A DNA stretch of 32,301 bases from a virus, in the IMG/VR virus record IMGVR_UViG_3300031631_000356, positions 1-32,301 of that record. One strand, written 5' to 3'. The translations under genes were made by a program, and so were the position numbers. Numbering within the stretch: the stretch's first letter is position 1; each line of letters begins with the position of its first letter. Below the pieces are notes generated by a model, which ran no database searches, had not been told where the DNA came from, and saw only the letters and a program-made list of their open reading frames with translations. This document shows positions 2,012 through 32,301 of the stretch, in pieces.

Positions 2012-2165
2012 GGCCCACCTCCCTCGCGTACGCCTCCAGCCACCCAGCGCCATGCTGAAGCCGCAGCCGCTCAAGAGCGAGGCCCGTGCTATGCGCCGCG
2101 CCGAACGGCCCCAGCAGGAGCCCCACAATGCGCTTGAGTAGCGCCACCCTCGCCGCGTCACTCAT
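2004..2165 (-). CDS. Hypothetical small protein, 53 aa
   Basis: Short protein starting MSDAARVALLKRIVGLLLGP, mostly helical in appearance, with a hydrophobic N-terminal helix and a C-terminal GWLEAYAREVGHE. The ATG at 2165 overlaps the stop of the C5-methyltransferase gene (ATGA), and its own stop lies inside the next gene's start region. No function can be assigned. The tight coupling on both sides supports translation. Confidence 0.6.
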   Translation of the reverse strand: MSDAARVALLKRIVGLLLGPFGAAHSTGLALERLRLQHGAGWLEAYAREVGHE

Positions 2166-3291: not shown

Positions 3292-3295
3292 TCAC
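2162..3295 (-). CDS. dcm: DNA C5-cytosine methyltransferase
   Basis: This 377-residue enzyme should transfer a methyl group from SAM to C5 of cytosine. Motif I FAGAGG is at residues 20-25 and motif IV GGFPCQDIS has its catalytic Cys at about 90. Motif VI reads ENS (128-130) instead of the usual ENV. Motif VIII is GAPHIRKRIWVAG (163-175), and motif IX/X (GRVADGV, RLRAIGNGQVPAVAALAW) lies near the C-terminus. The region between VIII and IX, which should bind the target, is unusually polar and low in complexity. The GTG at 3295 overlaps the helicase stop (GTGA); ATG at 3286 is an alternative. The same DNA is also open in the +1 frame for its whole length (see next entry). Confidence 0.88.
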   Translation of the reverse strand: MNGMANQQGAQRGLRELALFAGAGGGILGGKLLGWRTVCAVEYEPYPGCVLVARQNDGTLAPFPIWDDVRTFDGRPWRGGVDVVSGGFPCQDISCAGKGAGLDGARSGLWVEMARIIREVRPRYVFVENSPMLTSRGLGVVLGDLAALGFDAEWGVLGADDVGAPHIRKRIWVAGHDSNAGQDGRSRAHVEVPNYDSSSCGHVPNFVGAGRRLKGPTVVPSTRGTEGPATADGGELADTAGTRCERAGQSSSQQDKHPSHGFSRVGCDASMADSYCEGLEVREGESTDDGSEQPTVERGRVSPGVFRDADQGDVGPKPVENTGRNSGGSWWTSEPHLGRVADGVAARAHRLRAIGNGQVPAVAALAWRLLTTRGGWS

Positions 3296-7101: not shown

Positions 7102-7348
7102 GACCAGATTCTAACATGCCCGTTGGCACATCGGCAACACCCTGAAGAGTGACGACCAGCCGGACACCGAGCGCGCAGGCGAGAGCCCCGATGGTCTTGA
7201 CGGTCGTCTCACGCGCACCGCTTTCGGCTCGGCTTACGCACGAATGATGGACCCCCGCCAGCTTTGCTAGCTCGCGTTGACTCAGGCCAAGCCCTTCCCG
7301 CAAGTCCCGGATCCTCTGGCGTAGCCCGCTCAAGTCAGTGCTTGTCAT
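7091..7348 (-). CDS. XRE-family helix-turn-helix regulator, 85 aa
   Basis: A small Cro/CI-type DNA-binding protein. Residues about 5-65 form a complete HTH_3 domain (LRQRIRDLREGLGLSQRELA, then KLAGVHHSCVSRAESGARET and VKTIGALACALGVRL), with the recognition helix at HHSCVSRAES. The short tail (VVTLQGVADVPTGMLESGHG) is not a dimerisation domain of CI type. The ATG at 7348 overlaps the Dam-like gene stop (ATGA), and its end overlaps the initiator start by 11 nt. It probably regulates phage early transcription, or could be an orphan HigA-like protein; no toxin partner is seen. Confidence 0.8.
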   Translation of the reverse strand: MTSTDLSGLRQRIRDLREGLGLSQRELAKLAGVHHSCVSRAESGARETTVKTIGALACALGVRLVVTLQGVADVPTGMLESGHGK

Positions 7349-8331
7349 ATCCCGAGTCCCATCTGTGAGTTGTCGTTGCATGCCGGCGAGAACCATATGC
7401 GCTCCCGGCCTGAGTTATCATCGGCGGCATTGCCGCGCCCGCCTCCGTATCCACCGGCCGCACGCCATGCGACCTCCCGCCACCCGTCCGGCACGGTGCG
7501 GCCATCGTCATAGCCACACACTGCTATGCGGTACCGGTCGTCTTCCCCCGCCTCGATTGCCCAGGCCCACACCTCAGCGGCGATGCCGTCCCGCTGCACG
7601 GTGTACCCCTGGCCCTCCTCATATGGAGGGTCGAGAAATACGCCGGTCGTGCCCAGCATGACGGTCACACTCTCACCGACCACGCGGCGCCAGTCACCGC
7701 AGGCCACCCTCACCCGTCGCATACGGGCATGGATGGCGGTCGCCCACTCTCGCCCCGCGTCGCCCAGGTGCGGCAGCTTCCGGTTGATGCCTCGCCCGCT
7801 GGTCAAGTGCGGCAGCTGCCGGTTGATGCCTTGCCCCCCGTTGCTCAAGTGCGGCAGCTGCCGGTTGATGCCTTGCCCCCCGTTGCTCAAGGACAGTACC
7901 CCGTCGACCGAGCGCCACGGCCCCTCGCCCGAGCACCACCCTGAGCCTATCCACGAGCACGCACCCCAGACCCACCAGCCAGCGACCTTGGCGTCGCACC
8001 ACGAGGCGTCACCCATGAGGCGCTCGGTCATGCGGTCGCGCTCACCCAGGAGCCATAGGTGCCGAGCGTGCAAGTCAGCCTCGTTGACAGGCCAGTCAGC
8101 ATGATGCGCGACCGCCTCAGCGTCGAGTGCCATGGCCCGCCAGAAGTTGGCAACGAACCCGTCCGCGTCGTTGACCGTCTCGATTCGGCCCTCACCCCCT
8201 GGCCTCGACAGTAGCACCGCAGCCGAGCCGCAGAATGGCTCCACATAGTTCGCAACGTCCCGGCCGAACGTCTCCCACACGAGCGCCGCAGCGCGAGACT
8301 TGCCGCCGAAGTAGGGGAATGGTGCCCTCAC
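7345..8331 (-). CDS. dam: Dam-like DNA N6-adenine methyltransferase
   Basis: 328 residues of the D12 class (alpha order). The N-terminal SAM motif is PFPYFGGKSRAAALVWETFG, continued by YVEPFCGSAAVLLSRPG. The catalytic motif DPPYEEGQGYT lies in the second half (FLDPPYEEG). Between them, about residues 145-190, sits a tandem peptide repeat (LSNGGQGINRQLPH twice, then LTSGRGINRKLPH) encoded by a DNA minisatellite. The GTG at 8331 overlaps the upstream stop (GTGA) and begins directly before the conserved APFPYFGGK, which supports this start. Target adenine context is unknown (GATC in the classical family). Confidence 0.88.
   Translation of the reverse strand: MRAPFPYFGGKSRAAALVWETFGRDVANYVEPFCGSAAVLLSRPGGEGRIETVNDADGFVANFWRAMALDAEAVAHHADWPVNEADLHARHLWLLGERDRMTERLMGDASWCDAKVAGWWVWGACSWIGSGWCSGEGPWRSVDGVLSLSNGGQGINRQLPHLSNGGQGINRQLPHLTSGRGINRKLPHLGDAGREWATAIHARMRRVRVACGDWRRVVGESVTVMLGTTGVFLDPPYEEGQGYTVQRDGIAAEVWAWAIEAGEDDRYRIAVCGYDDGRTVPDGWREVAWRAAGGYGGGRGNAADDNSGRERIWFSPACNDNSQMGLGI
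7768..7890 (-). repeat. Coding minisatellite (39/42/42 bp) in the Dam-like gene
   Basis: Copies begin at 7768, 7807 and 7849 (plus-strand coordinates). The copies at 7807-7848 and 7849-7890 are identical over 42 bp; the 7768 copy is 39 bp and diverged. All lengths are multiples of three, so copy number can change without a frameshift. The encoded peptide repeat GQGINRQLPHL occurs between the SAM and catalytic motifs, where the target-recognition domain of D12 methylases lies. The identical pair suggests recent duplication or slippage. Confidence 0.9.
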
Positions 8332-8555
8332 GACCTCGACTCCTTGACCAACTCGACTCGAAAGCAAGTGCGCTGGGGTTGCGACAGACCGCCCCCTCCC
8401 GCGTCGATGTGCCACCGCTGTTTCGTGCTCCACGAATCCCACTTGACGAACATCCCGGCCGCGTCAGAATGGACCGTCCCGGTGAGACTGCGACGGGGTA
8501 GGTTTCCGTCCGTATCGCCCCCGAAGTACACTCGATCCCCCGTCTTAAGCGTCAT
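8328..8555 (-). CDS. Hypothetical small protein, 75 aa (SH3-like barrel suggested)
   Basis: Begins MTLKTGDRVYFGGDTDGNLP and continues RSLTGTVHSDAAGMFVKWDS, a pattern of short beta strands with GDRVYF and VKWD typical of small KOW/SH3-like barrels that bind nucleic acid or protein; this is only a resemblance. The ATG at 8555 overlaps the stop of the preceding gene (ATGA), and its stop overlaps the GTG of the Dam-like gene. No specific function assigned. Confidence 0.7.
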   Translation of the reverse strand: MTLKTGDRVYFGGDTDGNLPRRSLTGTVHSDAAGMFVKWDSWSTKQRWHIDAGGGGLSQPQRTCFRVELVKESRS

Positions 8556-14421: not shown

Positions 14422-14579
14422 GAATCGGCTCGGTGCTCAAAGAGATTGGCCCCGCAGAATGAACCACCGAGCGCTGCAAGCGCGGAGAACGGCGCCGCTC
14501 CCTCAATGCCCGCCAGTGCTAGGAGGCAGACCAGCGAGCCAAGCAGGCCCACTACAGCGGCCTTGCGATAGCCCCTCAC
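14418..14579 (-). CDS. Very small membrane protein, 53 aa (holin candidate)
   Basis: A short gene bounded by two GTGA overlaps: its GTG (14579) overlaps the endolysin stop, and its TGA overlaps the next GTG. The product is RGYRKAAVVGLLGSLVCLLA, then LAGIEGAAPFSALAALGGSF and CGANLFEHRADS: a positively charged start, one clear transmembrane helix (residues 7-25), a second hydrophobic stretch (30-45) and a charged end. This hairpin-like layout directly after an endolysin is what a class II-like holin would look like. Function inferred from context. Confidence 0.6.
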   Translation of the reverse strand: MRGYRKAAVVGLLGSLVCLLALAGIEGAAPFSALAALGGSFCGANLFEHRADS

Positions 14580-15274
14580 GACTGACCCCCGCCGCGCAAC
14601 AGGTCGGAGAATCCGGCGTAGTCGAAGCGCGTACCCAAGTCCCAGTCACGCCCGATCACCTTGCCAGCCTTGAAGACCGTGCCCCTACGCATCGGGTCAA
14701 TATCCGAGTGGGTGACGACCGTTGGCGCCATGCCGCCCATGCGAGCGGTGAGGCCCGCGTCAGCGAGCAACTCACAGCACAATCCCGCAGCGACCTCGAG
14801 TTGACGCCGGGAGAAGTCACCGGTCGGAGTCGGTAGCAGGTCTAGCCCGATGCTGTGATTATTCGGGTTGCGCGTCCCGATTAGATCGAGCGGCGAGGGT
14901 ACGCCAGGCCAACGAGCGTCCCACCAATCCCACACCACATCGGGTGGCCGATTGTGCTCGATATAGTCCGCAGTCGTCGCGCTGAGTGGCTTGGCCCACA
15001 ACCGCCACGGCTCGCCATCCGCGCCTGCCTCGTAGCGCCAGTCGAGCGATGCGCTGTGGTACGCCCGCGCGCTGTACGGGGCGAGCTGCGCATAGGTGCC
15101 CGCCGTGTCAACGATGCCATGGCCATAGTACGGCGCGGCTGTGCTGGTGTAGCGGGCGAGAGCGCCATCGGTCGTGCCACCCACTCGGCCGGAGAACGTG
15201 CGGCCTGTGGTGTGGAGCACGACGAATCGCACTGGCGCGGTTCGGTCTTTGAGATTGTCGGACTGTGGCAGCAT
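14576..15274 (-). CDS. Endolysin: N-acetylmuramoyl-L-alanine amidase (Amidase_2)
   Basis: 232 residues, no signal peptide, so it should need a holin. The amidase fold is recognised from VRFVVLHTTGRTFSG (first zinc His at 21), YYGHGIVDTAGTYAQLAP, the NNHSIGLDLLP strand (137-147) and TVVTHSDIDPMRRGTVFKAG (second His at 189). In AmpD the third ligand is an Asp ten residues after the second His; here that position is Thr (199), so the third ligand must come from elsewhere or zinc binding is altered. It would cut the bond between MurNAc and L-Ala. ATG 15274 follows AGGAGG at a good spacing. Confidence 0.85.
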   Translation of the reverse strand: MLPQSDNLKDRTAPVRFVVLHTTGRTFSGRVGGTTDGALARYTSTAAPYYGHGIVDTAGTYAQLAPYSARAYHSASLDWRYEAGADGEPWRLWAKPLSATTADYIEHNRPPDVVWDWWDARWPGVPSPLDLIGTRNPNNHSIGLDLLPTPTGDFSRRQLEVAAGLCCELLADAGLTARMGGMAPTVVTHSDIDPMRRGTVFKAGKVIGRDWDLGTRFDYAGFSDLLRGGGQS

Positions 15275-15360: not shown

Positions 15361-15389
15361 ATTATGCCGCAGCCTGTCTAGGCGTACAA
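15361..15389 (-). promoter_or_regulatory. Candidate promoter for the lysis cassette
   Basis: On the minus strand TTGTAC (15389-15384) and CATAAT (15366-15361) are separated by 17 nt. CATAAT matches the -10 consensus at five of six positions; the -35 box keeps only TTG. It spans the last codons of the large tail gene and lies about 90 nt upstream of the endolysin ATG. It would allow lysis genes to be expressed apart from read-through of the tail genes. Confidence 0.35.
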
Positions 15390-18300
15390 CTTCGCCGGGT
15401 CTGGCACAGCGCCCAAACCGCCCGCGTCATCGCCTAGGTATGCGTAGGCTTGCTGCGTTGTCGTTGTCGCCGGTTGCGCGTACCCGTCCGGTCTGAGGGT
15501 GTCGCCCACGTTGAGCGCGGGCACCGCCGGGCCGCTGAGCGTAACCAGGTTGCCCACGATTGAAAGCACAGTCAGACCCCCCGTCGAGGTACCGTAGCTA
15601 CCCCGAGGACACGCCCGTATAGAATCGCCCGCTTGCCAGTAGTCCACGTCTTCAAGCGCGAGGCCCGACACCGGGTCAGTCGTCTCGGTGTAAATGTTCG
15701 CCTCAACTGTATATGTGCTCGCGTTCGTCACCGCCGCGACCATAAGCGATGGCGACCACCCACTGACCGTCGAGTCATGCCACGTCAGCTTGATGCGCGC
15801 CGTCTGTTTGTAGCCGTCGCCGTTGATCGAAATCACCCGCATCGGTTGCGCGCTGATACCGCGTGCGCCGTCGTAGCCGTATATGTCGACCGCCGACACC
15901 ATGACGGTCGTGCCCGCGTTGATCTGCACCGCATCGGCCCATGCAATCGCGCCCTCAATCTGCCGGCGAGGTGCGCCGACTTGAGCGAATCGAGCCGCGC
16001 TGAACGGCAGCAGGCTGGCGAGATGGTCGGCTGGACTGCCCGGCGGTATCGTGACGCCGCGCAGGTCTAGCTCATCCGTCGGTGCGGAGCCGTACTCCCC
16101 GATTGAGTCGCGGTTGACTAGGTTGACGATGGTCGAATACTCGTCCGCCGCGCTGTCGTAGCCCGTCGAGGCCCGAATGATGTTGACGATTCGATCATCG
16201 TCGGTTGTATCAGGTCGAGAGTTGGCGAGCCAATCGCCGTTTGCAATCGTGCCGATGGCGTCGCCGGCGTACTCCGAGGACACCGACACAAGCGTGAGGC
16301 GCCGGCGTAGGACACCGCCCGCACCGGCTGCCGCTACCCGCTCGACACGCAGCACAAGGGCCGCGCCGATGCTGCGTAGGATGGGCTCCACGAACTCTCG
16401 GATAGTGATGCTGTCCCAATCGTTGAGGCTGAGCGTGAGGCGCTGCGCGAAACCGTCCGGGTATGGGTAACGGACGAAAGATTGGATATCGACTTCATCC
16501 TGTCGCAGATTTGCGCCCATTGCGAATACGTCGAACGTCGAGTTGTACCCGTTGCCGTCGCCGCTCATTAGCACGTTGAGCAGTACCGTCTTCGGGCCGG
16601 TATTGCGCCAAGAGACGTCCTCCTCAATCGTGCACTTGGATTGCCCGGGCCAGTCGCCAAAGCTCATATTCCAGCGGTCTTGGTCCGTGTCAATCTTGAG
16701 CAATGTCCCAGGCTGCCCCGGGGTGATAAGGTCCGCCGCTTGCGTCCCCGACTCGTCAATCGCGATGGATTGCCGGTACTCCTCGCCGTCCCATTCAGTC
16801 CATCGGACTAGGATTCGACTGCCCCGAATGACGTTATCGGTGATATGAATCCACGATTCGCCCCGCTGGTAGTAGGCGTCCGGGTATCCGCGCACGGGCA
16901 CAATCAAGGAACCGTCGGCCGCGGCCTGCTCCCAGAGGACTTGTGCATTGCCTAGCGCGCCAGACTCACGACGAATCACGATGGCGCCCACGTTGGCGTG
17001 CTGCTGAGTCTCCAGCATCCATACTTTTGTGGCGGCGTCAGAAGCGAAGCCCGAGGCCCCATAGTAGAGGGCCTCTCCGCTCGCGTCCCATGCCGTTATC
17101 TTGACGAACGCGCCCGCCGGACGGGCGGTGTTGAAGCGGAACTGCACCACCGGCCCACCGCTCGCGTGGTTCGGGTCGAGTATCACATCCGCGAACTGCC
17201 CGAGTTGTAGTGGCGTGTCTCGGTGGTCGTGAGGCGACATAAGCGCGGTTAGACGAGCGAGCGCAACGCCCGGCCATTGGATGACCTCGGGCACACCTGG
17301 CGCGGTTAGCACCGATGCGCTGATGTTGTTTGAGGCTGCCGCGTTCTGCCAAGTCTTGCGGCGAGGCGTCACGAACACGGTCCCCGGGCTGAGTGTCAAC
17401 TCGTCGCCAATGGCGTCACCATCTGGGAGACCGACATACGCGGTCACATCTTGAGCCGCCTCGGTGCCGTCCTCGTCCACAACACGACCGCGACGCTGGT
17501 AGTCTGGATTGGCGCCGCCGATTGTCGTCACCGCGGCAAGGTCAAACGTGCCGTTGTGGGCTGCCCATTTAATCTTCAGCTCGGTGTTGGCCGCGGCGTT
17601 GAACCCCGTGTCATCCGACCACGCCTCACCCTGAGAGTACCCCACCGCGCACATGAACGTGCCGCCAGACTGGCCGTCGAACGTGTGCAGCCCTTGCTGT
17701 AGCCCGGTCCTCTCGACACCGCCGCCCACGCTGATGCTGAGCGCGTCGGTGTGCGGGATAATGTTGAGCGCGACCGATAGACCATCACCCGAAATCTCGG
17801 GGTTGCTCACGATGCGCCCGCTGACGTACTCCACCCAGCCATCGGCCTGCGAACCGTCCGGCCTGAGCGACGAGACGAGCACCCGCGCCTTGCGATTCTG
17901 CCAGGTCACGCACTGCGAATAGATGCGCGGTGCCCACCCCTCGACAGAGGACGCGATGTGCATTCTCTGCTCGCTACCCCACCACCCGCGGTCGGTGGCG
18001 AGAGCAATCGTGAATTGCCACGGTGACGCGACCGAGCGCGCTGAGTACTGGATGCACTCCTTACCGATCCAAAGATAACCCGCCGCAGGCCACCCGCTTA
18101 TGTCCTCGTTAACCTCGACGAGCCCACCGCCGGTCTGGTCGAGCGTCGAGGCGAGCGTCGCCATATGTGGCGAGCCATCTCGCCCAACCGCCATCAATAG
18201 CCGTGCGTCATTGTCGCGAGTCACCGCCAGAGTGACCGACACTTGACCAGCCGTCACGACAGATTGAAGCACGTCCAGTTCCTGGTCTGCCGATGTGACC

Positions 18301-18458
18301 GCCATAATCCCGGGCGCCGCTGTGTGCGTCCATGCCTCGGCATAGGGCGGAAGCGTCGGGGCCGTCGGGCTGCTGTAGTACGTCTTTTGCAGGCCGTCGA
18401 TTTCGAGCAACCAGACCATCGTGTTCTGACGGCGGGATAGTTCGTCGAGCACACTCAT
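15378..18458 (-). CDS. Large tail-tip / hub-like protein, 1026 aa
   Basis: The longest gene in the window and the last of the tail module, where phages usually encode the central tail hub or host-contact protein. Begins MSVLDELSRRQNTMVWLLEI and is largely beta-rich, with blocks such as GWPAAGYLWIGKECIQYSAR, WAPRIYSQCVTWQNRKARVL, GYLDxxG-free middle sections and a C-terminal repeat-like strand region (TYTVEANIYTETTDPVSGLA, LEDVDYWQAGDSIRACPRGS). The motif IGKECIQYSAR is typical of phage tail proteins that carry an imported surface-binding fold. I do not recognise a catalytic domain. ATG 18458 overlaps the upstream stop (ATGA). Confidence 0.65.
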   Translation of the reverse strand: MSVLDELSRRQNTMVWLLEIDGLQKTYYSSPTAPTLPPYAEAWTHTAAPGIMAVTSADQELDVLQSVVTAGQVSVTLAVTRDNDARLLMAVGRDGSPHMATLASTLDQTGGGLVEVNEDISGWPAAGYLWIGKECIQYSARSVASPWQFTIALATDRGWWGSEQRMHIASSVEGWAPRIYSQCVTWQNRKARVLVSSLRPDGSQADGWVEYVSGRIVSNPEISGDGLSVALNIIPHTDALSISVGGGVERTGLQQGLHTFDGQSGGTFMCAVGYSQGEAWSDDTGFNAAANTELKIKWAAHNGTFDLAAVTTIGGANPDYQRRGRVVDEDGTEAAQDVTAYVGLPDGDAIGDELTLSPGTVFVTPRRKTWQNAAASNNISASVLTAPGVPEVIQWPGVALARLTALMSPHDHRDTPLQLGQFADVILDPNHASGGPVVQFRFNTARPAGAFVKITAWDASGEALYYGASGFASDAATKVWMLETQQHANVGAIVIRRESGALGNAQVLWEQAAADGSLIVPVRGYPDAYYQRGESWIHITDNVIRGSRILVRWTEWDGEEYRQSIAIDESGTQAADLITPGQPGTLLKIDTDQDRWNMSFGDWPGQSKCTIEEDVSWRNTGPKTVLLNVLMSGDGNGYNSTFDVFAMGANLRQDEVDIQSFVRYPYPDGFAQRLTLSLNDWDSITIREFVEPILRSIGAALVLRVERVAAAGAGGVLRRRLTLVSVSSEYAGDAIGTIANGDWLANSRPDTTDDDRIVNIIRASTGYDSAADEYSTIVNLVNRDSIGEYGSAPTDELDLRGVTIPPGSPADHLASLLPFSAARFAQVGAPRRQIEGAIAWADAVQINAGTTVMVSAVDIYGYDGARGISAQPMRVISINGDGYKQTARIKLTWHDSTVSGWSPSLMVAAVTNASTYTVEANIYTETTDPVSGLALEDVDYWQAGDSIRACPRGSYGTSTGGLTVLSIVGNLVTLSGPAVPALNVGDTLRPDGYAQPATTTTQQAYAYLGDDAGGLGAVPDPAKLYA

Positions 18459-19567
18459 AGGTTAGGCAATCCGGGCGTCGGCACCGCAAGATGGAAGTCG
18501 GCCGCGTTGTCTTTCGTGTCGTGCCCGTCGGTCGGGTACCGCTGCCACGAACGTGGATCGCCCGCGTCCGGCGGAAGCATAGTGCCCTCGGCGACACCAG
18601 GCATAAAGAAGCCGTGCCCTTGCTCCCACGCGACGCCGCTGAGCCGATTGCCCGCGTCGTCTATAGTTACCCCCGCGACGTTGTTATTGAGACTTGACCC
18701 AGCCATCAGAACGCTCTTTGTGCCCTGCGGTAGGCCGTCGATGATAAGTTGATTCCCAACGACCATCCGTTGACCGGGTTGAAGTATCCCGTCCCCTACA
18801 TTGAGCGGCCAACTGTTTGTATTTACTAAGAGAAAATCCCAGTAATTCAACACCGTATTCGTCAAGTCGTGCGGCGCCCGGCCCGCGTTGTAAATCTCTA
18901 TAAACTCGAAAATGTCAGCGCCGGGGATATCATAGTCGACCTCGCTAATGACCAGCCGCGAGATTGGCGTGTGCGTGTTCTGATACGCCTCAAGCGCCAT
19001 GTGCGAATAAACGCGGGCGTCATTTGTCGAGACTCGAATCTGAACCGCTTGTCCCTGATAGCCGGACACGTCGAGCAGTCGCGGGTCGGTGGCGTTGCCC
19101 TGGGTGCCCCAGCCGGTGTGCATAATCCGGTCATGCCCTTGATTCCCGGCGGGCGCTGGCATGTCCCAGTACACCCGAGTCGGCAGTTTACCGTTGTCTG
19201 GGGTCCACTCAATAGGCCCATCGATAAGCACGCCTGCGACGGTCTCTAGGCGCACGGTGATACTCGGGCCGGTGGATTTCTGTTCGGCTGCGACCCACGC
19301 CCCCCACCACACATACTGAGCAAGCGGCGAGACCACCCACCGCATGATCGGATCGTTATTCATCGGGCCGTGTGGCGGGTCGTCATCGGCAGTTGATGCC
19401 GCGTTGATGATGCACTGTGCCTGCATAAACCGCAGGCCGCGGAAGCCGGCCAGATGATTGAGCCCGTTGCTGAACGTCGACACCGTGCGTCCGAATAGAG
19501 GTCGGGCCACGTTGTGCGCGGACGTGTCAGGCATCGCGTTGAGCACTGTCGGGATTGTGCCAGCCAT
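18455..19567 (-). CDS. Tail protein with C-terminal lamin-tail domain (LTD)
   Basis: 370 residues. Residues 203-369 match the lamin-tail/LTD immunoglobulin-like fold: SRLVISEVDYD, FEFIEIYNAGRAPHDLTNTV, ILQPGQRMVVG, GVTIDDAGNRLSGVAWEQ, then the signature RSWQRYPTDGHDTKDNAADF and PTPGLPN. In bacteria LTDs occur mostly in exported or surface proteins; a virion protein is unusual. The first 200 residues (MAGTIPTVLNAMPDTSAHNV, FSNGLNHLAGFRGLRFMQAQ, then a beta-sandwich) resemble the layout of the next gene upstream. Probably a tail-tip or receptor-binding component. The start lies directly after the upstream stop. Confidence 0.72.
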   Translation of the reverse strand: MAGTIPTVLNAMPDTSAHNVARPLFGRTVSTFSNGLNHLAGFRGLRFMQAQCIINAASTADDDPPHGPMNNDPIMRWVVSPLAQYVWWGAWVAAEQKSTGPSITVRLETVAGVLIDGPIEWTPDNGKLPTRVYWDMPAPAGNQGHDRIMHTGWGTQGNATDPRLLDVSGYQGQAVQIRVSTNDARVYSHMALEAYQNTHTPISRLVISEVDYDIPGADIFEFIEIYNAGRAPHDLTNTVLNYWDFLLVNTNSWPLNVGDGILQPGQRMVVGNQLIIDGLPQGTKSVLMAGSSLNNNVAGVTIDDAGNRLSGVAWEQGHGFFMPGVAEGTMLPPDAGDPRSWQRYPTDGHDTKDNAADFHLAVPTPGLPNL

Positions 19568-20620
19568 CTAGACCCCCCACGCGGAGAACGATTTGAGGCC
19601 TGGACGCGGGTAGACGGTCAAGTGAGCGAAACCGAAGTACTCGCCGGGCGCCTGCACAATATCGCCCGGTTCGAGGACGATCGAGATCTCGCCCGAGTCG
19701 AACGGGTCGCCCGCGACACCGGCCACCAGCACCTGTGTGTACCCTCGCGACGTGTTGTTGGCTTGCCATAGCCGCCACGCGGACTCTTGGGTTGCCGCGC
19801 TGTGCTGGATTAGATGCGCCACCGGCTGGGCCTGGACTGTCGAGAGCATGCGAAACTTGAGTGTGTGTCGAGCGTTGCCGAGGTCATAGACCGGAACGAC
19901 CACGCGGAACGGGCGCTGAAGAAAGTACGGCAGAGGCAGCACGCCCATTGCGTGGTAGGTCCGACGCCGGGTCGCAACGGCTGTTACCCCCGCAGATACA
20001 GTCTGTGCGAGTTCCGAGCATAATGGGTCGTCTGCGAGAACCTCGAGAGAGTCGAGCGGCGTGGTCCCGTCTGGACCGACACCCCCGAGAAGCTCGTCGT
20101 TAGCGCCTGGATACGCGCCGCCGGGGTTGAGTTCGTCGAACTCGATCGCGATGCTTTCGATATTCACATCACCCGATGTGGAGATCGTGATCACATCGGT
20201 GTCGCCGGGCGGAAGCCCGATAAATAGCGCGGGTGCCCCTGTGTACCATGCGGTTGCGGCGAGTAGCGCCACATCTGAGAAGTTGCCGGTCGTCGCGGAC
20301 GTGAATCTCACCACGCCACCGCCGAGGAAGCTGTGCCCGTACACTCTGCACGATAGGGTCAAATGCTGGTCGGTTAGCTTTGGGATGATGACCGTCAGCC
20401 GGTCGACCAGGCCTGGCACGTTGTAGACGAACCCGCCATCCCAATTCTGCTGATAGACCGGCTGCGCGTGCATCATTGCAAGGTTGAGGTTGTGCAACTG
20501 CGCCACGTCGTACCAGTGCCCGAGGTTGCTTATGCTTCCCGCGTCAACCGGCTTTGTCGGTGTCGTCAGCCTCACATCGGGAAGCGCGATAGACGCCACC
20601 GCTGGGATAGTCCTCGCCAC
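19568..20620 (-). CDS. Tail-tip protein, probable paralogue of the LTD protein's N-terminal half, 350 aa
   Basis: Begins with GTG (TAGTG overlap). The product starts MARTIPAVASIALPDVRLTT and has ISNLGHWYDVAQLHNLNLAM followed by beta-sandwich-like sequence (DRLTVIIPKLTDQHLTLSCR, FSDVALLAATAWYTGAPALF, ESIAIEFDELNPGG). A second sandwich-like part follows (YFLQRPFRVVVPVYDLGNAR, ISIVLEPGDIVQAPGEYFGF). The opening M-A-x-T-I-P and the following SNxxxH..N/GL..MxAQ pattern recur in the downstream LTD protein, suggesting gene duplication. No known family. Probably a receptor-binding or tail-tip structural protein. Confidence 0.6.
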   Translation of the reverse strand: MARTIPAVASIALPDVRLTTPTKPVDAGSISNLGHWYDVAQLHNLNLAMMHAQPVYQQNWDGGFVYNVPGLVDRLTVIIPKLTDQHLTLSCRVYGHSFLGGGVVRFTSATTGNFSDVALLAATAWYTGAPALFIGLPPGDTDVITISTSGDVNIESIAIEFDELNPGGAYPGANDELLGGVGPDGTTPLDSLEVLADDPLCSELAQTVSAGVTAVATRRRTYHAMGVLPLPYFLQRPFRVVVPVYDLGNARHTLKFRMLSTVQAQPVAHLIQHSAATQESAWRLWQANNTSRGYTQVLVAGVAGDPFDSGEISIVLEPGDIVQAPGEYFGFAHLTVYPRPGLKSFSAWGV

Positions 20621-21900
20621 TAGTCCTCCGCGTTCTCAAGTATCGTGGTCATGGGGATACGCCGCAGCAGCGAACCCGGCCATTTGTTGGCTTTCTTCGC
20701 CTTGTCCGATATGCCGCGGCGCCCCCTGATACGCCCGCGGCGGCCGTCGAGCTCAGCGGTTGCGAGTAGGTCGTAGGCTGGCGTCACTACCTCCGAGCCG
20801 ACAAGGCCGGTAGTGCGCGCCTCGACTGTATGCCGCACGCGGCGAGAGTCTCCCCACACCTGATAGAGCGTCCACCGCACGCCCTTTGCAGCGCGAGGCA
20901 CTACAGCGTTGAGCCAGTGCGTCGACAGGTCGCGAGAGTCGGCCGGGCCGTCGATCCACCACTCGACAGACACCGACTCGAAACCCATCACCTTGTTACT
21001 CGCAATCTCACCGCTGGTCAGACGCGCCGTGTTTGTCGTCTCGTCGTACCGGTGCGTGACTGGGCGCATCAGTGGACGGCTTGGCATGATGGCGCCCTCG
21101 CAGGGATGCATTGCCTCGATGAACTTGAGATCGTCGCCTGTCGTCGCGTCGGCGAGAGTCTGCGTGGTCTCGGTCCCATCGAAGCCGAGCCACTCCTGAA
21201 AGTCTGAAACACGCCACACCCCAACGCCGTTGGGCTCTGTGGACGGGAACCCGAGGGACGCCAGCCAGACATGCCCATCGGCGTTGAGGCCCCACCGGTA
21301 TTGACCGGGCGCCCCGTACGCTGCGACCGTCTGGCTCTCGAGGTTGGCGGCTGCGTCTGTGCTATCCGCATCGACTAGCGTTGACGCCCGCAGCATCGTG
21401 ACCACGTCTTGCGCCCTGTATGCGTGATACGGGATATTGTCAGTAGCGCCGCCCCCGTCCTTTATTATCAGGTGCTTATTCTCGACGTTACCCCGCACCC
21501 AATCGGCACTAGCTGTAATTCTGCGAATGGGACCGGCACCAACCAGCGCAGACGTGATATCGCCGACCGCTGAGTTCGCAAAACCGAACGCTTCGCGCCC
21601 TCCGCCGGGCTTGAGAATGAAGATACCCGATGTGTCCTCGATGACTACTCGATCATCACCGTTGAGATAGATCGACCACGTTGCCCCCTTGACCGTCTTC
21701 ACCAGCGCGTCGAGGTCGGCGCCCGGCGAACTGCACCGGCCGTTCAAAAAGTTCAGCGCGTCCTCGAAATAGTCAGTGGCAGGCCCCAGTAGCTTAGGCC
21801 CCACTCCGCCCGCCATTAGCATCAACTCCACGCCGCGCCATGCTCGGGCGTCAACCTCCGTCAGTAGCGCGATAGGTGGGCTTGGGTCGAGACTCGGCAT
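20620..21900 (-). CDS. Tail-associated protein of unknown function, 426 aa
   Basis: Not recognised. N-terminal half is alpha/beta (LTEVDARAWRGVELMLMAGG, YFEDALNFLNGRCSSPGADL, WSIYLNGDDRVVIEDTSGIF), and the middle contains VSDFQEWLGFDGTETTQTLA and HVWLASLGFP. The basic C-terminus (LDGRRGRIRGRRGISDKAKK, ANKWPGSLLRRIPM) is enriched in Arg/Lys and could bind another virion component. It lies between unrecognised tail proteins, adjacent to the upstream stop with no gap. Confidence 0.6.
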   Translation of the reverse strand: MPSLDPSPPIALLTEVDARAWRGVELMLMAGGVGPKLLGPATDYFEDALNFLNGRCSSPGADLDALVKTVKGATWSIYLNGDDRVVIEDTSGIFILKPGGGREAFGFANSAVGDITSALVGAGPIRRITASADWVRGNVENKHLIIKDGGGATDNIPYHAYRAQDVVTMLRASTLVDADSTDAAANLESQTVAAYGAPGQYRWGLNADGHVWLASLGFPSTEPNGVGVWRVSDFQEWLGFDGTETTQTLADATTGDDLKFIEAMHPCEGAIMPSRPLMRPVTHRYDETTNTARLTSGEIASNKVMGFESVSVEWWIDGPADSRDLSTHWLNAVVPRAAKGVRWTLYQVWGDSRRVRHTVEARTTGLVGSEVVTPAYDLLATAELDGRRGRIRGRRGISDKAKKANKWPGSLLRRIPMTTILENAED

Positions 21901-22797
21901 CTACTCAGCGACCGCGCCGTCGCTACGACAAAGCCACGCGCCGCCATCCATGCAGACTGCTTTGACGGTCGCGCCGTCTTTCCACTGCGTGGCAATCGTG
22001 CCGTTGGGGCCACTATATAGCGCGGGACAAGTGCCGACGATTGTCGCCTGCCCGAACGTCCCGAGGTTGGCCCCCGGAATCGCGATCGCAACGGGGCAAA
22101 TGCGCCAAGTGCCTGCGCCGTCGGTCGCGTAATCCCCAGTCAGGCCGCTGGTGTTGAGCGGTAACATTCTCGACGTGTTGACCCATGCGCCGTCCCGTGC
22201 CTCGATAGCACAATGGTCGTTCGACGAGGTTGTCGCCCAATCCGACCACATCCCGCCAAACACGCAAAAACCATCGCCAAGCCCAGCGTCAAGGCGCGAG
22301 TATCGACCAGCAAAGCAGCCGCCATTATATCCGGCCGCCCCTGCCTTATGCCGTATCAGGAGCCAGTCAGCGCCACTCACGACAATCGACCTGCCGCTCA
22401 GCGTGAATTGTGTTGCGGCTTGGGTGTCTGCCGTCCATCCAGAGAATCTGGGGCCGACCATCCATCCCATCGTCGTGATGTCCATCACCGCGCCGCCTGG
22501 GTCCACACCGACCATGACGTCATCAGCGGCAGCCTGTGCTGCCCCGTCAACCATAAGCCCACCCACGCCCATGCTATTTGCAAATAGAATATTGATCGTG
22601 CTGGTTGCGGTGTCCTCAATCACGAAGCCAGCATCGCCCGGGTTCGTGATTGACGCGGGCAACATGACGCCCATCTTGATGCGCCAGTTAGGATCCTGTC
22701 CGGCGTCAAACGCCGCGTATAAACCGCCGAGAAGTTCCTTGAATGTCGCGCTGACCGGCGTTGCGTAGGTAACCGCGATGCCGTCTTGAACTGCCAT
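21901..22797 (-). CDS. Tail-associated protein of unknown function, 298 aa
   Basis: Begins MAVQDGIAVTYATPVSATFK. Beta-rich, Gly/Ala-rich sequence (FVIEDTATSTINILFANSMG, MGWMVGPRFSGWTADTQAAT, GGCFAGRYSRLDAGLGDGFC) with paired Cys (PVAIAI...VGTCPALY, CMDGGAWLC). The composition is that of a tail-tip or fibre-associated protein, and the position agrees. No family assigned. Confidence 0.6.
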   Translation of the reverse strand: MAVQDGIAVTYATPVSATFKELLGGLYAAFDAGQDPNWRIKMGVMLPASITNPGDAGFVIEDTATSTINILFANSMGVGGLMVDGAAQAAADDVMVGVDPGGAVMDITTMGWMVGPRFSGWTADTQAATQFTLSGRSIVVSGADWLLIRHKAGAAGYNGGCFAGRYSRLDAGLGDGFCVFGGMWSDWATTSSNDHCAIEARDGAWVNTSRMLPLNTSGLTGDYATDGAGTWRICPVAIAIPGANLGTFGQATIVGTCPALYSGPNGTIATQWKDGATVKAVCMDGGAWLCRSDGAVAE

Positions 22798-23413: not shown

Positions 23414-25063
23414 TCAGGCCCCCATTATGCCGCGCAGCTCTTGAGCCATCTGGGCTTGCTCGATACGCAGCAACGGGCGCGAGCCCGCTGTTAGATTTAG
23501 ATTTATCGTCGTCTCTTGAGTGCCGCGGCCTTCGCTGCGGTCCTGTCCCGTGTCGCCGCCGCCGGTGAATGCGTCAGACTCGGCCTCGGCGTCTTCGGCG
23601 TCACCACCACCCGCACCCGCAGGCCCGTTAAACCCGCCGGTCGCCATCGTGAGGCCAGTGGCAGTGCCAGCAACCGCAGCGAAAGCAGCAGCTGCGCCAT
23701 AGTGCACCGCTGCGCCCGGTGGGTTAATAAGTGACATCGCAAGCCCCTTGGCTAGCTCCATCATGGCCTGGATCCCAGCCTCTTTCGCCATGACCTCGAC
23801 AACATCGTTGAAGGCGTCCTTCATCGAATCGCTATACACAGCGGCGTCAAAAGCAGCGCTCAGCAGGCCGTTGCCCATCATATCGACTTGGGGCCCGAGG
23901 GTCGACTTAAACGAATCGCTCAACTCCTCATTATACTTTGTCGCGGCCCTCACCTCATCGACCCACTCCCGGACTCCCTCGATGAGTGGATCGAGCTTAT
24001 CTCTTGCGGCGTCGAGGCTCGCAAATAGAGCGTCACTGAATGCGGTGCCATCGGCGGAATCATCCGGGCTCAGAGCTTCAAGTTCGGCCCGAAGTTCCGC
24101 GATAAACTTCTCCTCGTCTCGGTCTACTGCGTCCCACTCGTCGGCCAACTGCCGAAGGGACTTCTCTCTTTTGGCCGACCTGGCCCCACTCCGCCCGCCA
24201 CCCTTGGGCGTGACCTTAGGCTCAACCTTGGGCGGGTTGAAGGCATCGCCCATCGATTTAGCCAGCGCATCAAAAGCCTTCTGCTCAGCCCGCAGCGCAT
24301 CGGTAGCCCTCCCCGCGATGATGAGCGTCTTGATCCTCTCGCCCTTAAGCTTCTTAAGTTCCTTAGTAGCCTTCGCCCATGCGTTGGCGATCGCCGCCGC
24401 CTCTTCTACTGTTTGGCCAGCCTTTATCGCCTTGTTTTCTTTGTGGAGTTGAGCGACGTGTTTCGCCTTGGCTGCGGTCCTGGCCTTCAGTAGTTGGATC
24501 GCGTTAAAGCCTGCGTCGTCAGCCGCCTTTGCCGCACGCAATTTCGAGACCGCATCACTAGCGGCGAGCTTCTCACTCAGCATCAAAGCCGAGCCAGCGA
24601 CACCGATTTGTTTAGCGAGTTCTCTGTACGAATCCGCCGCTTTATCTGACTCTTTGACGAGCGCTTTGAGAGCCTCTGCTGCTTTCTCCTTGGCAGCCTT
24701 AGCTAGTTCATCCTGCGCTTTAGCTGCTGCGCCTGCCCACTCGGTGAGGAGCTTATACGCGCCGACTACCACGCTGATGGCGATACCCACCACACCCATT
24801 GCGGCAGTTGCTGAGCCCATAATCGACGACAGCCTGTCGGTAGCTTTGAACGCCTTCCCGAGCCCGTTCTCAAGCTTCTTGTCCAGCATCATGGACAGGT
24901 CGCCAATGGATCGAGTTGCAGCCTTTGTTCCCCCCGTGGACTTCTTGGCGGTCTCACCGAAGGCAATCATCTCGACGCCGGTGGACTTGAGCGCCAACTG
25001 GGCTTTGTTCAGGTCGTCAAACTTGACTTCGATTATGGCCTTTTGGATGACTGTGCCGGCCAT
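23414..25063 (-). CDS. Tape measure protein
   Basis: 549 residues, mostly alpha-helical and Ala/Lys-rich, with long coiled-coil segments (LAKAAKEKAAEALKALVKES, AATKYNEELSDSFKSTLGPQ). Hydrophobic Gly/Ala segments (SIMGSATAAMGVVGIAISVV, then VVGAYKLLTEW; SLINPPGAAVHYGAAAAFAA) and a Gly-rich tail (GGFNGPAGAGGGDAEDAEAE) are present. This matches tail tape measures, which set tail length and carry membrane-active segments; at about 1.5 angstrom per residue it predicts a tail of roughly 80 nm. Its start lies two bases after the chaperone frameshift product's stop, the expected gene order. Confidence 0.85.
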   Translation of the reverse strand: MAGTVIQKAIIEVKFDDLNKAQLALKSTGVEMIAFGETAKKSTGGTKAATRSIGDLSMMLDKKLENGLGKAFKATDRLSSIMGSATAAMGVVGIAISVVVGAYKLLTEWAGAAAKAQDELAKAAKEKAAEALKALVKESDKAADSYRELAKQIGVAGSALMLSEKLAASDAVSKLRAAKAADDAGFNAIQLLKARTAAKAKHVAQLHKENKAIKAGQTVEEAAAIANAWAKATKELKKLKGERIKTLIIAGRATDALRAEQKAFDALAKSMGDAFNPPKVEPKVTPKGGGRSGARSAKREKSLRQLADEWDAVDRDEEKFIAELRAELEALSPDDSADGTAFSDALFASLDAARDKLDPLIEGVREWVDEVRAATKYNEELSDSFKSTLGPQVDMMGNGLLSAAFDAAVYSDSMKDAFNDVVEVMAKEAGIQAMMELAKGLAMSLINPPGAAVHYGAAAAFAAVAGTATGLTMATGGFNGPAGAGGGDAEDAEAESDAFTGGGDTGQDRSEGRGTQETTINLNLTAGSRPLLRIEQAQMAQELRGIMGA

Positions 25064-27393: not shown

Positions 27394-27872
27394 ACGCTGA
27401 CCTCTCGATATGTTACTGGGTTGGGAATAGTGAGCACGAATCCGACCTCTGCATCGCCCTGGTCGAGCGGTTCGCGTGTCGGCTGCTGTGCGGGAGCAAT
27501 CGAGACAATGCCAGTAGTGGCGCAGTCCCATTGTAGATGCTGCTGAATTGCGGCCTGGATGGTCGCGCAGTCCTCTTGAGCCAAGTCCCATCGGCGGGCT
27601 CGGTCAATCTGACTATAGAGGTAGACGACCTTGACCTCGATGATGGCCGTCAAGCGTCCCGCCGGGGTGCCCGCTTCGCCGTCGTCTAGCGGCATCACAT
27701 CGGACGGCCGCACCACGAAGTCGCGGGTTTGGCCTCTGCTCGGGTCGGCGATAACGTCCGGGGTCCAAGCGCCGTCAGACTCCGCGAGAACGAACGGTCG
27801 AGACGCATCAGACCGCGGCGTGGAGCCACTCACGAGCGCCGCTATCCTGTCGACTGCTAGGCGGATACCCAC
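27390..27872 (-). CDS. Tail terminator-like protein, 160 aa
   Basis: GTG at 27872 overlaps the upstream stop (TAGTG). The sequence GIRLAVDRIAALVSGSTPRS, FVVRPSDVMPLDDGEAGTPA, GRLTAIIEVKVVYLYSQIDR, QEDCATIQAAIQQHLQWDCA, GDAEVGFVLTIPNPVTYREV has the helix-strand-helix layout of gpU/tail-terminator proteins, which cap the tube and join it to the head. Genomic position before the tube gene supports this. No decisive motif. Confidence 0.6.
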   Translation of the reverse strand: MGIRLAVDRIAALVSGSTPRSDASRPFVLAESDGAWTPDVIADPSRGQTRDFVVRPSDVMPLDDGEAGTPAGRLTAIIEVKVVYLYSQIDRARRWDLAQEDCATIQAAIQQHLQWDCATTGIVSIAPAQQPTREPLDQGDAEVGFVLTIPNPVTYREVSV

Positions 27873-28396
27873 TAGATCACCCCCCCAGTGTTGAAGGTAT
27901 CGCGCAACGAATCGGCCTTGAACGACCGATCCAGCGTGTACTCAAGCCACCGTTGGATCTTCTTTCTGGTCGCCGGCCTCAACACCATGAACGGGCGCGC
28001 CGGGAGTGCGACGTGTCCCGGCCCAATGTCCCTACCCTCGACGCGACGCCCCCCGATGACACGAGCGCCCTCGTCTGCTTTCTTCCGCAGCCGCTTGCCG
28101 GTGATGGTGCCGTTGTGAACAAATCGCCCGTAATACTCACCAACCTTGATGCGCCCCGTTGTCTTGCGGAATGAGATCTTGATCGTCTCCAGCATTGACC
28201 CGTTTTCGGTCAGGTCGACCGGGGTGTCCTCCATACCCTTCGTCTTGTATGGCGCATACTGCCCGCCGTCTGGACCGATGCCGCGGTACGCCATGACAAT
28301 CGTATCCTCACGGATGATTTTCATGAGGGCACGGTTCTGCTTTTTGCTCATCAGGTTGACTTCACGCTGAGTGATTTTGACGATCACGCTAGGCAC
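27872..28396 (-). CDS. Head-tail connector / tail completion protein (HK97 gp10 / virion morphogenesis type)
   Basis: 174 residues, strongly basic. GTG 28396 (TAGTG overlap; GAGG upstream). The core (MSKKQNRALMKIIREDTIVM, GQYAPYKTKGMEDTPVDLTE, GSMLETIKISFRKTTGRIKV, EYYGRFVHNGT) and the end (LPARPFMVLRPATRKKIQRW) follow the phage morphogenesis/gp10 pattern, in which LTxxGxLxxSI, YAxxxxxG and a late ARPFL motif are characteristic. It joins head and tail or completes the tail. Confidence 0.75.
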   Translation of the reverse strand: MPSVIVKITQREVNLMSKKQNRALMKIIREDTIVMAYRGIGPDGGQYAPYKTKGMEDTPVDLTENGSMLETIKISFRKTTGRIKVGEYYGRFVHNGTITGKRLRKKADEGARVIGGRRVEGRDIGPGHVALPARPFMVLRPATRKKIQRWLEYTLDRSFKADSLRDTFNTGGVI

Positions 28397-29642: not shown

Positions 29643-30668
29643 CTAGACCAAGCAGGCCGAAATCCGAAACCCGAGGTCAGTGTTGATCGCGGTGTAGGCG
29701 TTCGCCTGCGACGCGCGGAACCACTGCACTAGACGGTTTGAGGACTCGAACGAATCCGCCAAGAACGGGTGCGCGGAGAAGTCCGCAGCGGCCGTCGGGG
29801 CAAGGCTGATAGCGTTGCCGGTGCTGACAGTGCGCGGTGTCGCGTTGCCCATCTTGCCCATCCACACCTGATTGGTCCACATGAACGCAGCCGCGCCGGC
29901 GAGTCCCAGGTTGGCGGTGTTCTGCACGTAGTCGCCGACGAACACTCGCGAGGCATCGACGCCGGTTGCCTCGGCGATGACGCCGCGCAACATGGCGAAG
30001 TTATCGTTGGCGCTGAGCACTCGAGAGCCGACGCCCACGTTGAGCGCCGCAGACAAGTAGCCGCGAGTCTCCGGGTGGCGGTTGAGTGCAACGGCAACAT
30101 CGACGCTTAGGACGATGGTATCGGGACGCTCGCCGAAAGCCTGCAAGGGCACGGTCTGCGTCGCGACGAGCGCAAGGTCGCTGATTGGAGTCGATGCCGC
30201 GGCGGACCAAATGACACCACCACCGCCCAACCCTGCGGCCGTTGAGGTAACCCAACCGGTCGGCACACCAAAGAGCAAGTCGACGAGCCGCTGCTCGGCT
30301 TTCTGCTTCGTGACGCGCGCGGCCTGAGTCGCACGCCGCACGCCAAGGTCGCCGAGCTGGTCGATGATTTCGTCCAGCCGCTTGTCCATGCCGACTTTGT
30401 GCCCGAAGTCGATGCAGTTGAACGCGCCAACGATCGGGTCGAACGTCACGCCCTGGGAGAACTCGCCCATGCGCCCACGGGCGATGTCGATGTCTGCCGC
30501 GCCGGCATAGCCGCGAGGGTCATCTGACAAGAACGTGCCCGAGATTTCGGGAACGATGATTTCGGGCAGTACGCCCGAGTCACACAAGAACCGCTGCTCG
30601 AGGCCTTCGGCCGCGAACTTGGTCAAGATATTGTTTACCGGATGCGATCCGGCACGAGAAAGAGCCAT
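29643..30668 (-). CDS. Major capsid protein, lambda gpE-like
   Basis: 341 residues, the same length as lambda gpE. Begins MALSRAGSHPVNNILTKFAA, includes GEFSQGVTFDPIVGAFNCID, FGHKVGMDKRLDEIIDQLGD, LRxxTQAARVTKQKAEQRLV-type helix (RRATQAARVTKQKAEQRLVD) and the C-terminal WTNQVWMGKMGNATPRTVST. The HK97-fold long helix, and gene order protease/scaffold - decoration - capsid, support the assignment. GGAGG lies 7-8 bases upstream of ATG 30668, a strong ribosome-binding site as expected for the most abundant protein. Confidence 0.85.
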   Translation of the reverse strand: MALSRAGSHPVNNILTKFAAEGLEQRFLCDSGVLPEIIVPEISGTFLSDDPRGYAGAADIDIARGRMGEFSQGVTFDPIVGAFNCIDFGHKVGMDKRLDEIIDQLGDLGVRRATQAARVTKQKAEQRLVDLLFGVPTGWVTSTAAGLGGGGVIWSAAASTPISDLALVATQTVPLQAFGERPDTIVLSVDVAVALNRHPETRGYLSAALNVGVGSRVLSANDNFAMLRGVIAEATGVDASRVFVGDYVQNTANLGLAGAAAFMWTNQVWMGKMGNATPRTVSTGNAISLAPTAAADFSAHPFLADSFESSNRLVQWFRASQANAYTAINTDLGFRISACLV

Positions 30669-30683
30669 GATTCAGCCTCCAGT

Positions 30684-31094
30684 TTAGATTGCGGGTCCGT
30701 CGACAATGAGAACGCGAATGACGTCACCGGCAGCGGCGCCAGTAGCCGCGTGGGTCGCACTCGGCAACCAGTTGGCGCAATGCACGCCGCCGCCGACGTG
30801 GGCAACTAGCGCGCCTGTGCCGACTTCAGCCATAAGCGCAAGCGCGCCCGCGGCTGCGAGAATGCCCGCGCCGCCTGCGATGGCGTAGGAAATACCAAAC
30901 ACCTGTACCGCGGTGGGCTGCGCGACTGTGACACCGAGCGCGATGCCCTCTTGGACGATTCCCATCGTGCGAGGGTTGCCCGCGCCGGGAAGCCCGATGT
31001 TCCCGGTTGGGTCAGTAGAGACCATTGAGAATTGTGGGATCGCCGCTGCGCCGTCGCTGATGAGCGTGATTGTGTTGTCGGTCGATGCAGCCAT
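30684..31094 (-). CDS. Head decoration protein (gpD-like position)
   Basis: 136 residues. MAASTDNTITLISDGAAAIP, QFSMVSTDPTGNIGLPGAGN, VQEGIALGVTVAQPTAVQVF, then ATHAATGAAAGDVIRVLIVD at the end. Such Ala/Gly-rich beta-barrel proteins between protease and capsid genes belong to decoration or capsid-stabilising proteins (gpD or DUF2190-like). It overlaps the protease stop by one base (TAATG). Confidence 0.72.
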   Translation of the reverse strand: MAASTDNTITLISDGAAAIPQFSMVSTDPTGNIGLPGAGNPRTMGIVQEGIALGVTVAQPTAVQVFGISYAIAGGAGILAAAGALALMAEVGTGALVAHVGGGVHCANWLPSATHAATGAAAGDVIRVLIVDGPAI

Positions 31095-32301
31095 TAGTTG
31101 GCCCCCTTCATGACTTCGATGTATTCGTTTCGGTGTTGAGCCTTGAAGGCATCAACGGCCGCTTTGGTGTTGGCGCCAGCGTTCGCCGAGCAGTAGTCGG
31201 CGACCCAGCCCTCGAAACCGGCAGCGGTCGCGAGCGTGGTGTTGACCGGGCCGGCGAACGGCTTGCCGCCCACGGACGAACCAGCGAGCCCCGCGTTTGA
31301 GGCGCCAGCGGCTTTGCCCTCAAGTGCGCTAAAGAGCCGACACTTGGACTGCGCCGCCGATGCGGTCGCGAGCGTGACACCGCGGCGCATTGCGTACGCC
31401 TGGGTGGCCTGCGCTTCGGCATCGTACAGGTGCTCGGCGATGGCGCGGTCGTTGTCGGTCGTACCGATACGGCCGGACGTGATGAGCGCGTCGATTCGGC
31501 TGTTACGCTCAGCGGCGCGAGCGCCCTGGACGTGTAGCGCGAGAACCGCAGACTTGGACTCGGCGGTCGCGAGAGCGGCACGAAGTCGGTTGAGTTCGAT
31601 ATCCGCGGCGACTGCGCCCGCGTCCTCGAGCTCGTCTTCGATCAGTTTCTCGGCGTCCTCGTCGGTGTCAAGGTCAAGGGCTTCAACCTCTTCCTCGCCA
31701 TCTTCCATGGACGCGGCGCGAAGAGCCAGCAGCTCAGTTTCGATTTCCTCCCGGCTCATTTCGCCGGGGATTGGCAGACCCATCGGGCCCTCCTTTTCCC
31801 GGTCTCCCGGGTCTGTTGATTCTTGAGCGACAGCTTGCGAGCCGTCGGGTCGACCTGCGCCAATAGCGGGGCCGACAATCGCGTCGATGAGACCAGCGGC
31901 GAGCGCGGCCCGTGCTGGCAACGTCGCGCCGCTTCCGAAGTCGGCCGCTACTTTTGCGCGGTCTCGCCCTCGATTGGCTGCTACGTCGTCGAGCAGCTGC
32001 CCGGCGAAGTCATCGACTATGGCCTGATACTGCTCGGCCTCTTCGCTGCGAGGGTCTGGCACCTTGGCCGGGGTCTGCGACGATATGAAACGCCGCTCGC
32101 CTTTTGGAAGGTCCGCCTTGCTCAGCATGACGCCGAGGCACCCTATCGAGGACGTGGACTGCGCTTCAATGCGGCCTGCCGCGCTGGCGAGCCAATACGC
32201 AGCCGAGCAACACGCGCCGTCTACCTGGACGGTCGTAGGCTTAGCACAGTCGCGGATTGCGGCCATTGCGCGCCGCACGCCATCGACCATTCCGCCGGGT
32301 G
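31094..32301 (-). CDS. Prohead protease/scaffold, S49 peptidase gpC-like (5' end outside window)
   Basis: Partial: the frame stays open to the window edge and the three visible codons before the first internal ATG read PGG, completing the S49 motif (SPGGMVDGVRRAMAAI), so the true start lies beyond 32301. The catalytic Ser is in VDGACCSAAYWLASAAGRIE, and a Lys 47 residues later (SSQTPAKVPDPRSEE) corresponds to the Ser-Lys dyad of lambda gpC. After the protease domain come a linker, an acidic coiled-coil part (MEDGEEEVEALDLDTDEDAE) and a scaffold-like segment (AAERNSRIDALITSGRIG). It matures the prohead and should cleave off its own scaffold part. Confidence 0.88.
   Translation of the reverse strand, partial: PGGMVDGVRRAMAAIRDCAKPTTVQVDGACCSAAYWLASAAGRIEAQSTSSIGCLGVMLSKADLPKGERRFISSQTPAKVPDPRSEEAEQYQAIVDDFAGQLLDDVAANRGRDRAKVAADFGSGATLPARAALAAGLIDAIVGPAIGAGRPDGSQAVAQESTDPGDREKEGPMGLPIPGEMSREEIETELLALRAASMEDGEEEVEALDLDTDEDAEKLIEDELEDAGAVAADIELNRLRAALATAESKSAVLALHVQGARAAERNSRIDALITSGRIGTTDNDRAIAEHLYDAEAQATQAYAMRRGVTLATASAAQSKCRLFSALEGKAAGASNAGLAGSSVGGKPFAGPVNTTLATAAGFEGWVADYCSANAGANTKAAVDAFKAQHRNEYIEVMKGAN

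Follow-up and report, generated by a model that had tools for sequence, protein, structure and literature searches.

Setting of the LTD gene

What is encoded at this locus? The window, by which we mean the whole analyzed stretch of 32,301 nucleotides from an uncultivated phage, carries on its minus strand, in this order, genes for a head maturation protease, a head protein, a neck protein and a tape-measure-like protein, then five genes among which lies the one of interest here, a gene for a 1026-residue protein, an amidase gene, and finally replication and methylase genes. The gene of interest encodes a protein of 370 residues that bears a lamin-tail domain (LTD), which is familiar mainly from nuclear lamins and from proteins that bacteria secrete. 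The features are as follows, with their basis in brackets.

31094–32290, minus: head maturation protease of the S49 type (PF01343 and phrog_53)
29643–30668, minus: major head protein (phrog_1005, E 1.1e-13)
27872–28396, minus: tail completion or neck protein (phrog_5, E 1.7e-5)
23414–25063, minus: probable tape measure protein, 549 aa (position; Ala/Lys-rich, helix-like sequence; weak tape-measure PHROG match, E 0.53)
21901–22797, minus: tail-region protein, 298 aa (ORF; weak match to a PHROG of unknown function)
20620–21900, minus: tail-region protein, 426 aa (ORF; no phage family match)
19568–20620, minus: tail-region protein, 350 aa, immediately upstream of the LTD gene (position; no family match)
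18455–19567, minus: LTD-bearing tail-region protein, 370 aa from ATG (ORF; PF00932 over the cut-off)
18983–19567, minus: its N-terminal region, residues 1–195, proposed as the virion-attachment part (no relatives found)
18647–18967, minus: its LTD core, residues 201–307 (Pfam; model of residues 195–370; Foldseek)
18461–18547, minus: its conserved C-terminal block of bacterial-type LTDs, residues 341–369 (alignment with bacterial LTDs)
15378–18458, minus: 1026-aa protein, immediately downstream of the LTD gene, probably tail hub or tip (size and position; no family match)
14576–15274, minus: N-acetylmuramoyl-L-alanine amidase, end of the structural and lysis block (PF01510, E 1.9e-11; endolysin PHROGs)
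276–1850, 2162–3295 and 7345–8442: DNA methyltransferases (N6_N4_Mtase, C-5 DNA_methylase and MethyltransfD12)

The LTD gene lies inside the tail block and is coupled on both sides, to immediate neighbors that are named by position only: the TAG stop of the 350-residue gene abuts its ATG, and its own stop overlaps the start codon of the 1026-residue gene (ATGA). Judged by hydropathy, in place of a dedicated signal-peptide predictor, the first 60 residues of the protein lack a signal-peptide-like core, the highest mean over a stretch of 13 residues being 0.88. Because the gene is coupled in this way and sited between the tape-measure-like gene and the amidase gene, and because its product lacks a signal-peptide-like start, the best reading of the protein is that of a virion component, a tail-tip or adsorption protein, with virion membership deduced from synteny. 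The initial annotation had called it a phage tail protein, which position and coupling to the neighboring genes uphold but homology does not, as no tail family in Pfam, PHROG or NCBIfam matches the protein or its neighbors. A cargo gene product acting at the surface of the infected host cell, rather than a virion component, would be in keeping with the closest LTDs found, all of which occur in bacterial proteins, several with signal-peptide-like starts on reading; given the start of the window protein and the coupling of its gene within the tail block, we regard such a role as very improbable.

Homology does not back this positional reading. No relatives were found for residues 1–195 or for the neighboring tail genes, and none were confirmed in viral_contigs for the 370-residue protein, its 1026-residue neighbor or the head protein, and comparison of the latter two with phage records likewise returned no relatives. 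The DnaB-like helicase of the window has 778 distant phage matches, spread over many different hosts, its amidase has none among phages, and the window holds no tRNA gene that might hint at a host. The three DNA methyltransferases in this one 32-kb fragment belong to different families according to Pfam.

The LTD and its predicted fold

That the 370-residue protein carries an LTD, as proposed in the initial annotation, is borne out by the Pfam search suggested there. LTD (PF00932) is the sole Pfam family found in the protein by hmmscan, with an E value of 3.7e-9 and a score of 37.4 bits, above the curated cut-off of 34.3 bits. The match spans residues 201–307 and covers profile positions 4–100 of 109; the sequence VISEVDYDIPGADIFEFIEIYNAG... 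falls within it and is the basis of the match. In a six-frame search of the whole record, the LTD profile again gave a single match (40.2 bits). When E[FW..][IV]E[IL]YN is written as a degenerate codon pattern, the window has one occurrence, inside the LTD gene, and 100 shuffles have none. PHROG and NCBIfam searches of the protein returned no match.

The base composition of the core is unusual, with a GC content of 0.520 over 18647–18967, a value as low as which is seen in none of 72 other coding windows, and a GC3 of 0.626, as low as which is seen in five of the 72. As a sign of foreign DNA this dip is weak, since it mostly reflects amino-acid composition, that is, the first and second codon positions.

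Structure prediction, also proposed at the outset, points to the same domain. A single-sequence model of the whole 370-residue protein was too poor to use (pLDDT 33.5) and was discarded, but a model of residues 195–370, built with 47 bacterial LTDs as alignment, reached a pLDDT of 63.9 and a pTM of 0.65. In a Foldseek search of the PDB with this model, ranks 1–13 are all lamin A/C or B domains, with probabilities up to 1.00 and a best E value of 1.8e-3, so that none reaches E ≤ 0.001. VIA-align places 12 lamin entries on top with Z scores of 6.1–7.6, the next, unrelated row having a Z score of 5.5. Although Z scores below 8 are weak on their own, the predicted lamin-type Ig-like fold of residues 195–370 is convincing because the model agrees with the sequence profile; as the rows of the alignment were picked as LTDs, the fold evidence is partly dependent and leans toward an LTD fold, and the model itself is of moderate confidence. 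At the sequence level, a PDB search with the 370-residue protein found no match, and one with our alignment of the window LTD and bacterial LTDs (alignment A3) found a single weak, uncharacterized match (E 0.028).

How close is this domain to its eukaryotic namesake? With the nuclear lamin tail (PDB 1ifr, 3umn) it shares the predicted Ig-like LTD fold over 107–115 residues, at the Z scores given above, whereas identity is 11–14% and the sequence relatives found for the window LTD are bacterial. The coiled-coil rod, or filament, domain of nuclear lamins was not found in the 370-residue protein by Pfam at E ≤ 0.1, which returned the LTD alone.

A bacterial affinity is also apparent beyond the Pfam match. 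The initial annotation had identified the LTD by a hallmark block, SWQRYPTDGHDTKDNAADF...PTPGLPN, which corresponds to residues 340–369. This block lies outside the match to residues 201–307 and is thus not what Pfam recognizes, but it does align with the C-terminal end of bacterial LTDs. In alignment A3, its 29 residues (341–369) are identical at 9–13 of 22–28 aligned positions in each of five bacterial LTDs, all from Actinomycetota, and the whole LTD unit, which starts near residue 203 and runs to the C-terminus, aligns with these five, block included. The bacterial-type feature DG.DT..NAADF...TPG..N after the LTD core is present in the window protein. A D..D[FWYL] block ends 25 of 26 distinct full-length bacterial LTD rows, and [TS]PG is found in eight of the 26, counts that are supportive rather than independent, as the profile already includes the block and five of the rows are its own seeds. 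On these alignments, the block is most readily understood as the stretch in which LTDs of the bacterial type end. A DNA pattern for the usual form of the block found no locus in viral_contigs, although the DTKDNAADF of the window itself would not match that pattern. Taken together, the LTD at the C-terminal side of the 370-residue protein is real and of bacterial type.

In front of this domain lies a region for which we found no kin. Residues 1–195 have no Pfam, PHROG or NCBIfam match and no close relatives in viral_contigs, and BLASTP against the neighboring proteins gave nothing significant. Kinship with the 350-residue neighbor was rejected, since shuffled sequences reached the observed score 31 times in 300 with its first half and 183 times in 300 with its second, as was kinship with the 426-residue and 148-residue proteins (204 and 47 of 300 shuffles). 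The 298-residue protein, for which 7 of 300 shuffles reach the score, was not accepted either, the similarity being a short gapped stretch in one of five comparisons. What we describe is a known domain in an unusual setting, a bacterial-type LTD ending a probable phage tail-tip protein.

Bacterial relatives and phylogeny

Where could such a domain have come from? A search with the window LTD matched 8 of 296 Actinomycetota genomes, from which the five LTDs of the alignment were taken; a wider profile search matched 26 of 246 Actinomycetota genomes at E ≤ 1e-6 and 4 of 101 Bacillota genomes at E ≤ 0.001. Compared with the Actinomycetota proteins L057, L058 and L061, the window LTD has in common the core EVDYDxPGxD...EF[IV]EI and the C-terminal block R.PDG.DT..NAADF...TPG, at 30–33% identity over the unit. 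The two settings differ, however: the proteins of the L057, L058 and L061 type read as exported and carry a nuclease-like, a collagen-like or no partner domain, while the window LTD is joined to an orphan region within a phage tail block and lacks a signal-peptide-like start. An acquisition from bacterial proteins, as suggested initially, is thereby supported, the nearest relatives found being bacterial LTD proteins of which several read as exported.

In a tree of 42 rows, whose bacterial members are from Actinomycetota and Bacillota and whose branches are long, the window LTD lies among bacterial LTDs on a long branch at an unresolved fork (83/61), its best identity being 33% (to L088). The proposed phylogeny against exported LTDs of candidate hosts is therefore realized in part: it places the domain among bacterial LTDs, on genomes of these two phyla. 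The LTDs of three other phages, phage G, DAC23 and crAss002, form a starred clade of their own (100/99), apart from the window LTD, and the AU test rejects a single clade uniting the four phage LTDs (p 0.0003), with the long branches and the restriction to two bacterial phyla as caveats. Because of this rejection, phages have probably recruited LTDs at least twice.

Among the full-length LTDs closest to that of the window, L057 and L060 occur in proteins that read like ExeM-type nucleases, which raises the question of nucleic-acid binding, be it to extracellular DNA of a biofilm matrix or to the phage genome, as suggested for nuclease LTDs. DNA binding by LTDs has indeed been proposed in one paper (PMC4486849). 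However, Pfam finds no nuclease domain in the window protein, and ExeM without its LTD is described as retaining residual activity in vitro and as producing in vivo a clearing zone of nearly wild-type size (PMC6085458). Binding of nucleic acid by the window LTD appears to us the least probable of the roles considered, slightly less so even than that of a cargo product.

LTDs in other phages and a candidate role

The window phage is not alone in carrying an LTD, but sequence searches did not readily reveal this. With the 370-residue protein and its LTD as queries, tblastn against 50,697 phage records gave only one significant match, MT835827, which was rejected as a phage relative because it reads like a piece of bacterial chromosome; titled "Bacteriophage sp.", this record (MT835827.1) looks bacterial in its content, encoding a metallophosphatase with tandem LTDs as well as transporter-like products. 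Two bacterial LTDs used as queries found no match in the phage records, and a plasmid search found no relatives. In viral_contigs, a scan with the LTD alignment matched 34 stretches, none of which was confirmed, and three DNA patterns for the LTD core matched 9, 0 and 9 loci, with PF00932 in none of the 18 matched records.

A viral structure library, on the other hand, returned gp352 of Bacillus phage G as a match to the window LTD model (probability 0.93, E 0.03). In gp352, an Mtd_N-like stretch (25.1 bits; cut-off 26.3) is followed by an LTD, which scores 29.9 bits, below the cut-off of 34.3, and reaches E 8.0e-8 in a six-frame search, and then by a metallophosphoesterase. The part of gp352 that comprises the LTD and the phosphoesterase has matches in 35 phage records: two are of phage G itself, and most of the others belong to Bacteroides DAC/SJC phages, crAss-like phages or Lak megaphages. 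In six of the 35, sampled from different groups, the LTD profile matches every time with an E value no higher than 1.1e-4, and in one of them the match exceeds the cut-off. By hmmscan, DAC23_84 and crAss002_19 consist of an LTD followed by a metallophosphoesterase, the LTD lying under the cut-off in both, and Lak-A1, a Lak megaphage, has a weak but consistent LTD match on its metallophosphoesterase protein. Like the window protein, gp352 and the "phosphatase" proteins of DAC23 and crAss002 begin with a virion-like region, carry an LTD behind it and are encoded in or near tail or adsorption genes; they differ from it in the metallophosphoesterase after the LTD, a domain not found by Pfam in the window protein, in LTD scores below the Pfam cut-off, and in the branch to which their LTDs belong. 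LTDs in phage adsorption regions thus look like a recurring theme, and tail spikes of Crassvirales have been annotated with phosphatase domains according to one study (PMC10136315). This parallel to the window phage seems to be unnamed: in crAss-like phages and phage G the proteins concerned are recorded as "phosphatase" or "metallophosphoesterase", with no mention of the LTD match, and in DAC23 and Lak-A1 the LTD matches lie on proteins left nameless. A literature search, which reached little of the subscription literature, found no paper that reports a phage tail protein with an LTD.

What, then, might the domain do at a tail tip? Phage tails are commonly decorated with Ig-like folds. The LTD could accordingly be a structural module that joins subunits or serves as a tail decoration, without any host ligand, and its position directly after an orphan region, with no catalytic domain, would suit such a role. 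The LTDs of the other phages, however, accompany a metallophosphoesterase in an adsorption region, which suggests an outward role, and we consider the structural alternative, the main rival, to be rather unlikely, though the least so of those we have weighed. Surface docking would fit a tail-tip protein best. For bacterial LTDs, whose role is described as not elucidated, targeting to membrane structures has been suggested (PMC6085458) and anchoring to the outer membrane proposed (PMC6461901), and one LTD protein is counted among putative cell-surface proteins (PMC12021427). Together with the LTD proteins of other phages, these proposals make the initially suggested function as a receptor- or surface-binding module plausible.

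Our favored reading, which we hold to be moderately probable, is accordingly that of a minor tail-tip or adsorption protein, with its bacterial-derived LTD as an outward docking module for a host ligand associated with the envelope. The N-terminal region of about 195 residues would attach the protein to the tail, and the C-terminal LTD, presumably taken over from a protein that bacteria export or display on their surface, would point outward from the particle. There it may dock on the envelope-associated ligand and so supplement the tail's main receptor-binding function with a hold on the cell surface. More tentatively, and possible rather than likely, LTDs would be a recurrent adhesion module, recruited independently several times from bacterial surface proteins into the tails of phages unrelated to each other, whether accompanied by a phosphoesterase or not. 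If so, phages would exploit the same envelope-docking surface by which bacteria hold on to the enzymes they export, and the ligand that bacterial LTDs bind could be revealed through a phage LTD. A small phage tail protein with a stand-alone terminal LTD provides a simple system in which to look for this ligand.

Further observations concern the neighborhood of the LTD-phosphoesterase genes. Phage G (gp352–gp353; L083, 7583–16001) and DAC23 (DAC23_84–85; L114, 4810–13614) have a two-gene cassette in common, in which the LTD-metallophosphoesterase gene precedes one for a large protein of Laminin_G_3/LRR type, whose phage G version is CotH-like; the products of the second genes match each other in BLASTP at E 5e-45. 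The genes after DAC23_84 and crAss002_19 are large, with LRR or weak lectin-like matches or labels, and similarly labeled genes stand beside the LTD-phosphoesterase in crAss-like phages. In one of these, cr60_1 (L116, 3924–7304), the annotated phosphatase gene contains eight in-frame stops under translation table 11, as would be expected if a stop codon is recoded.
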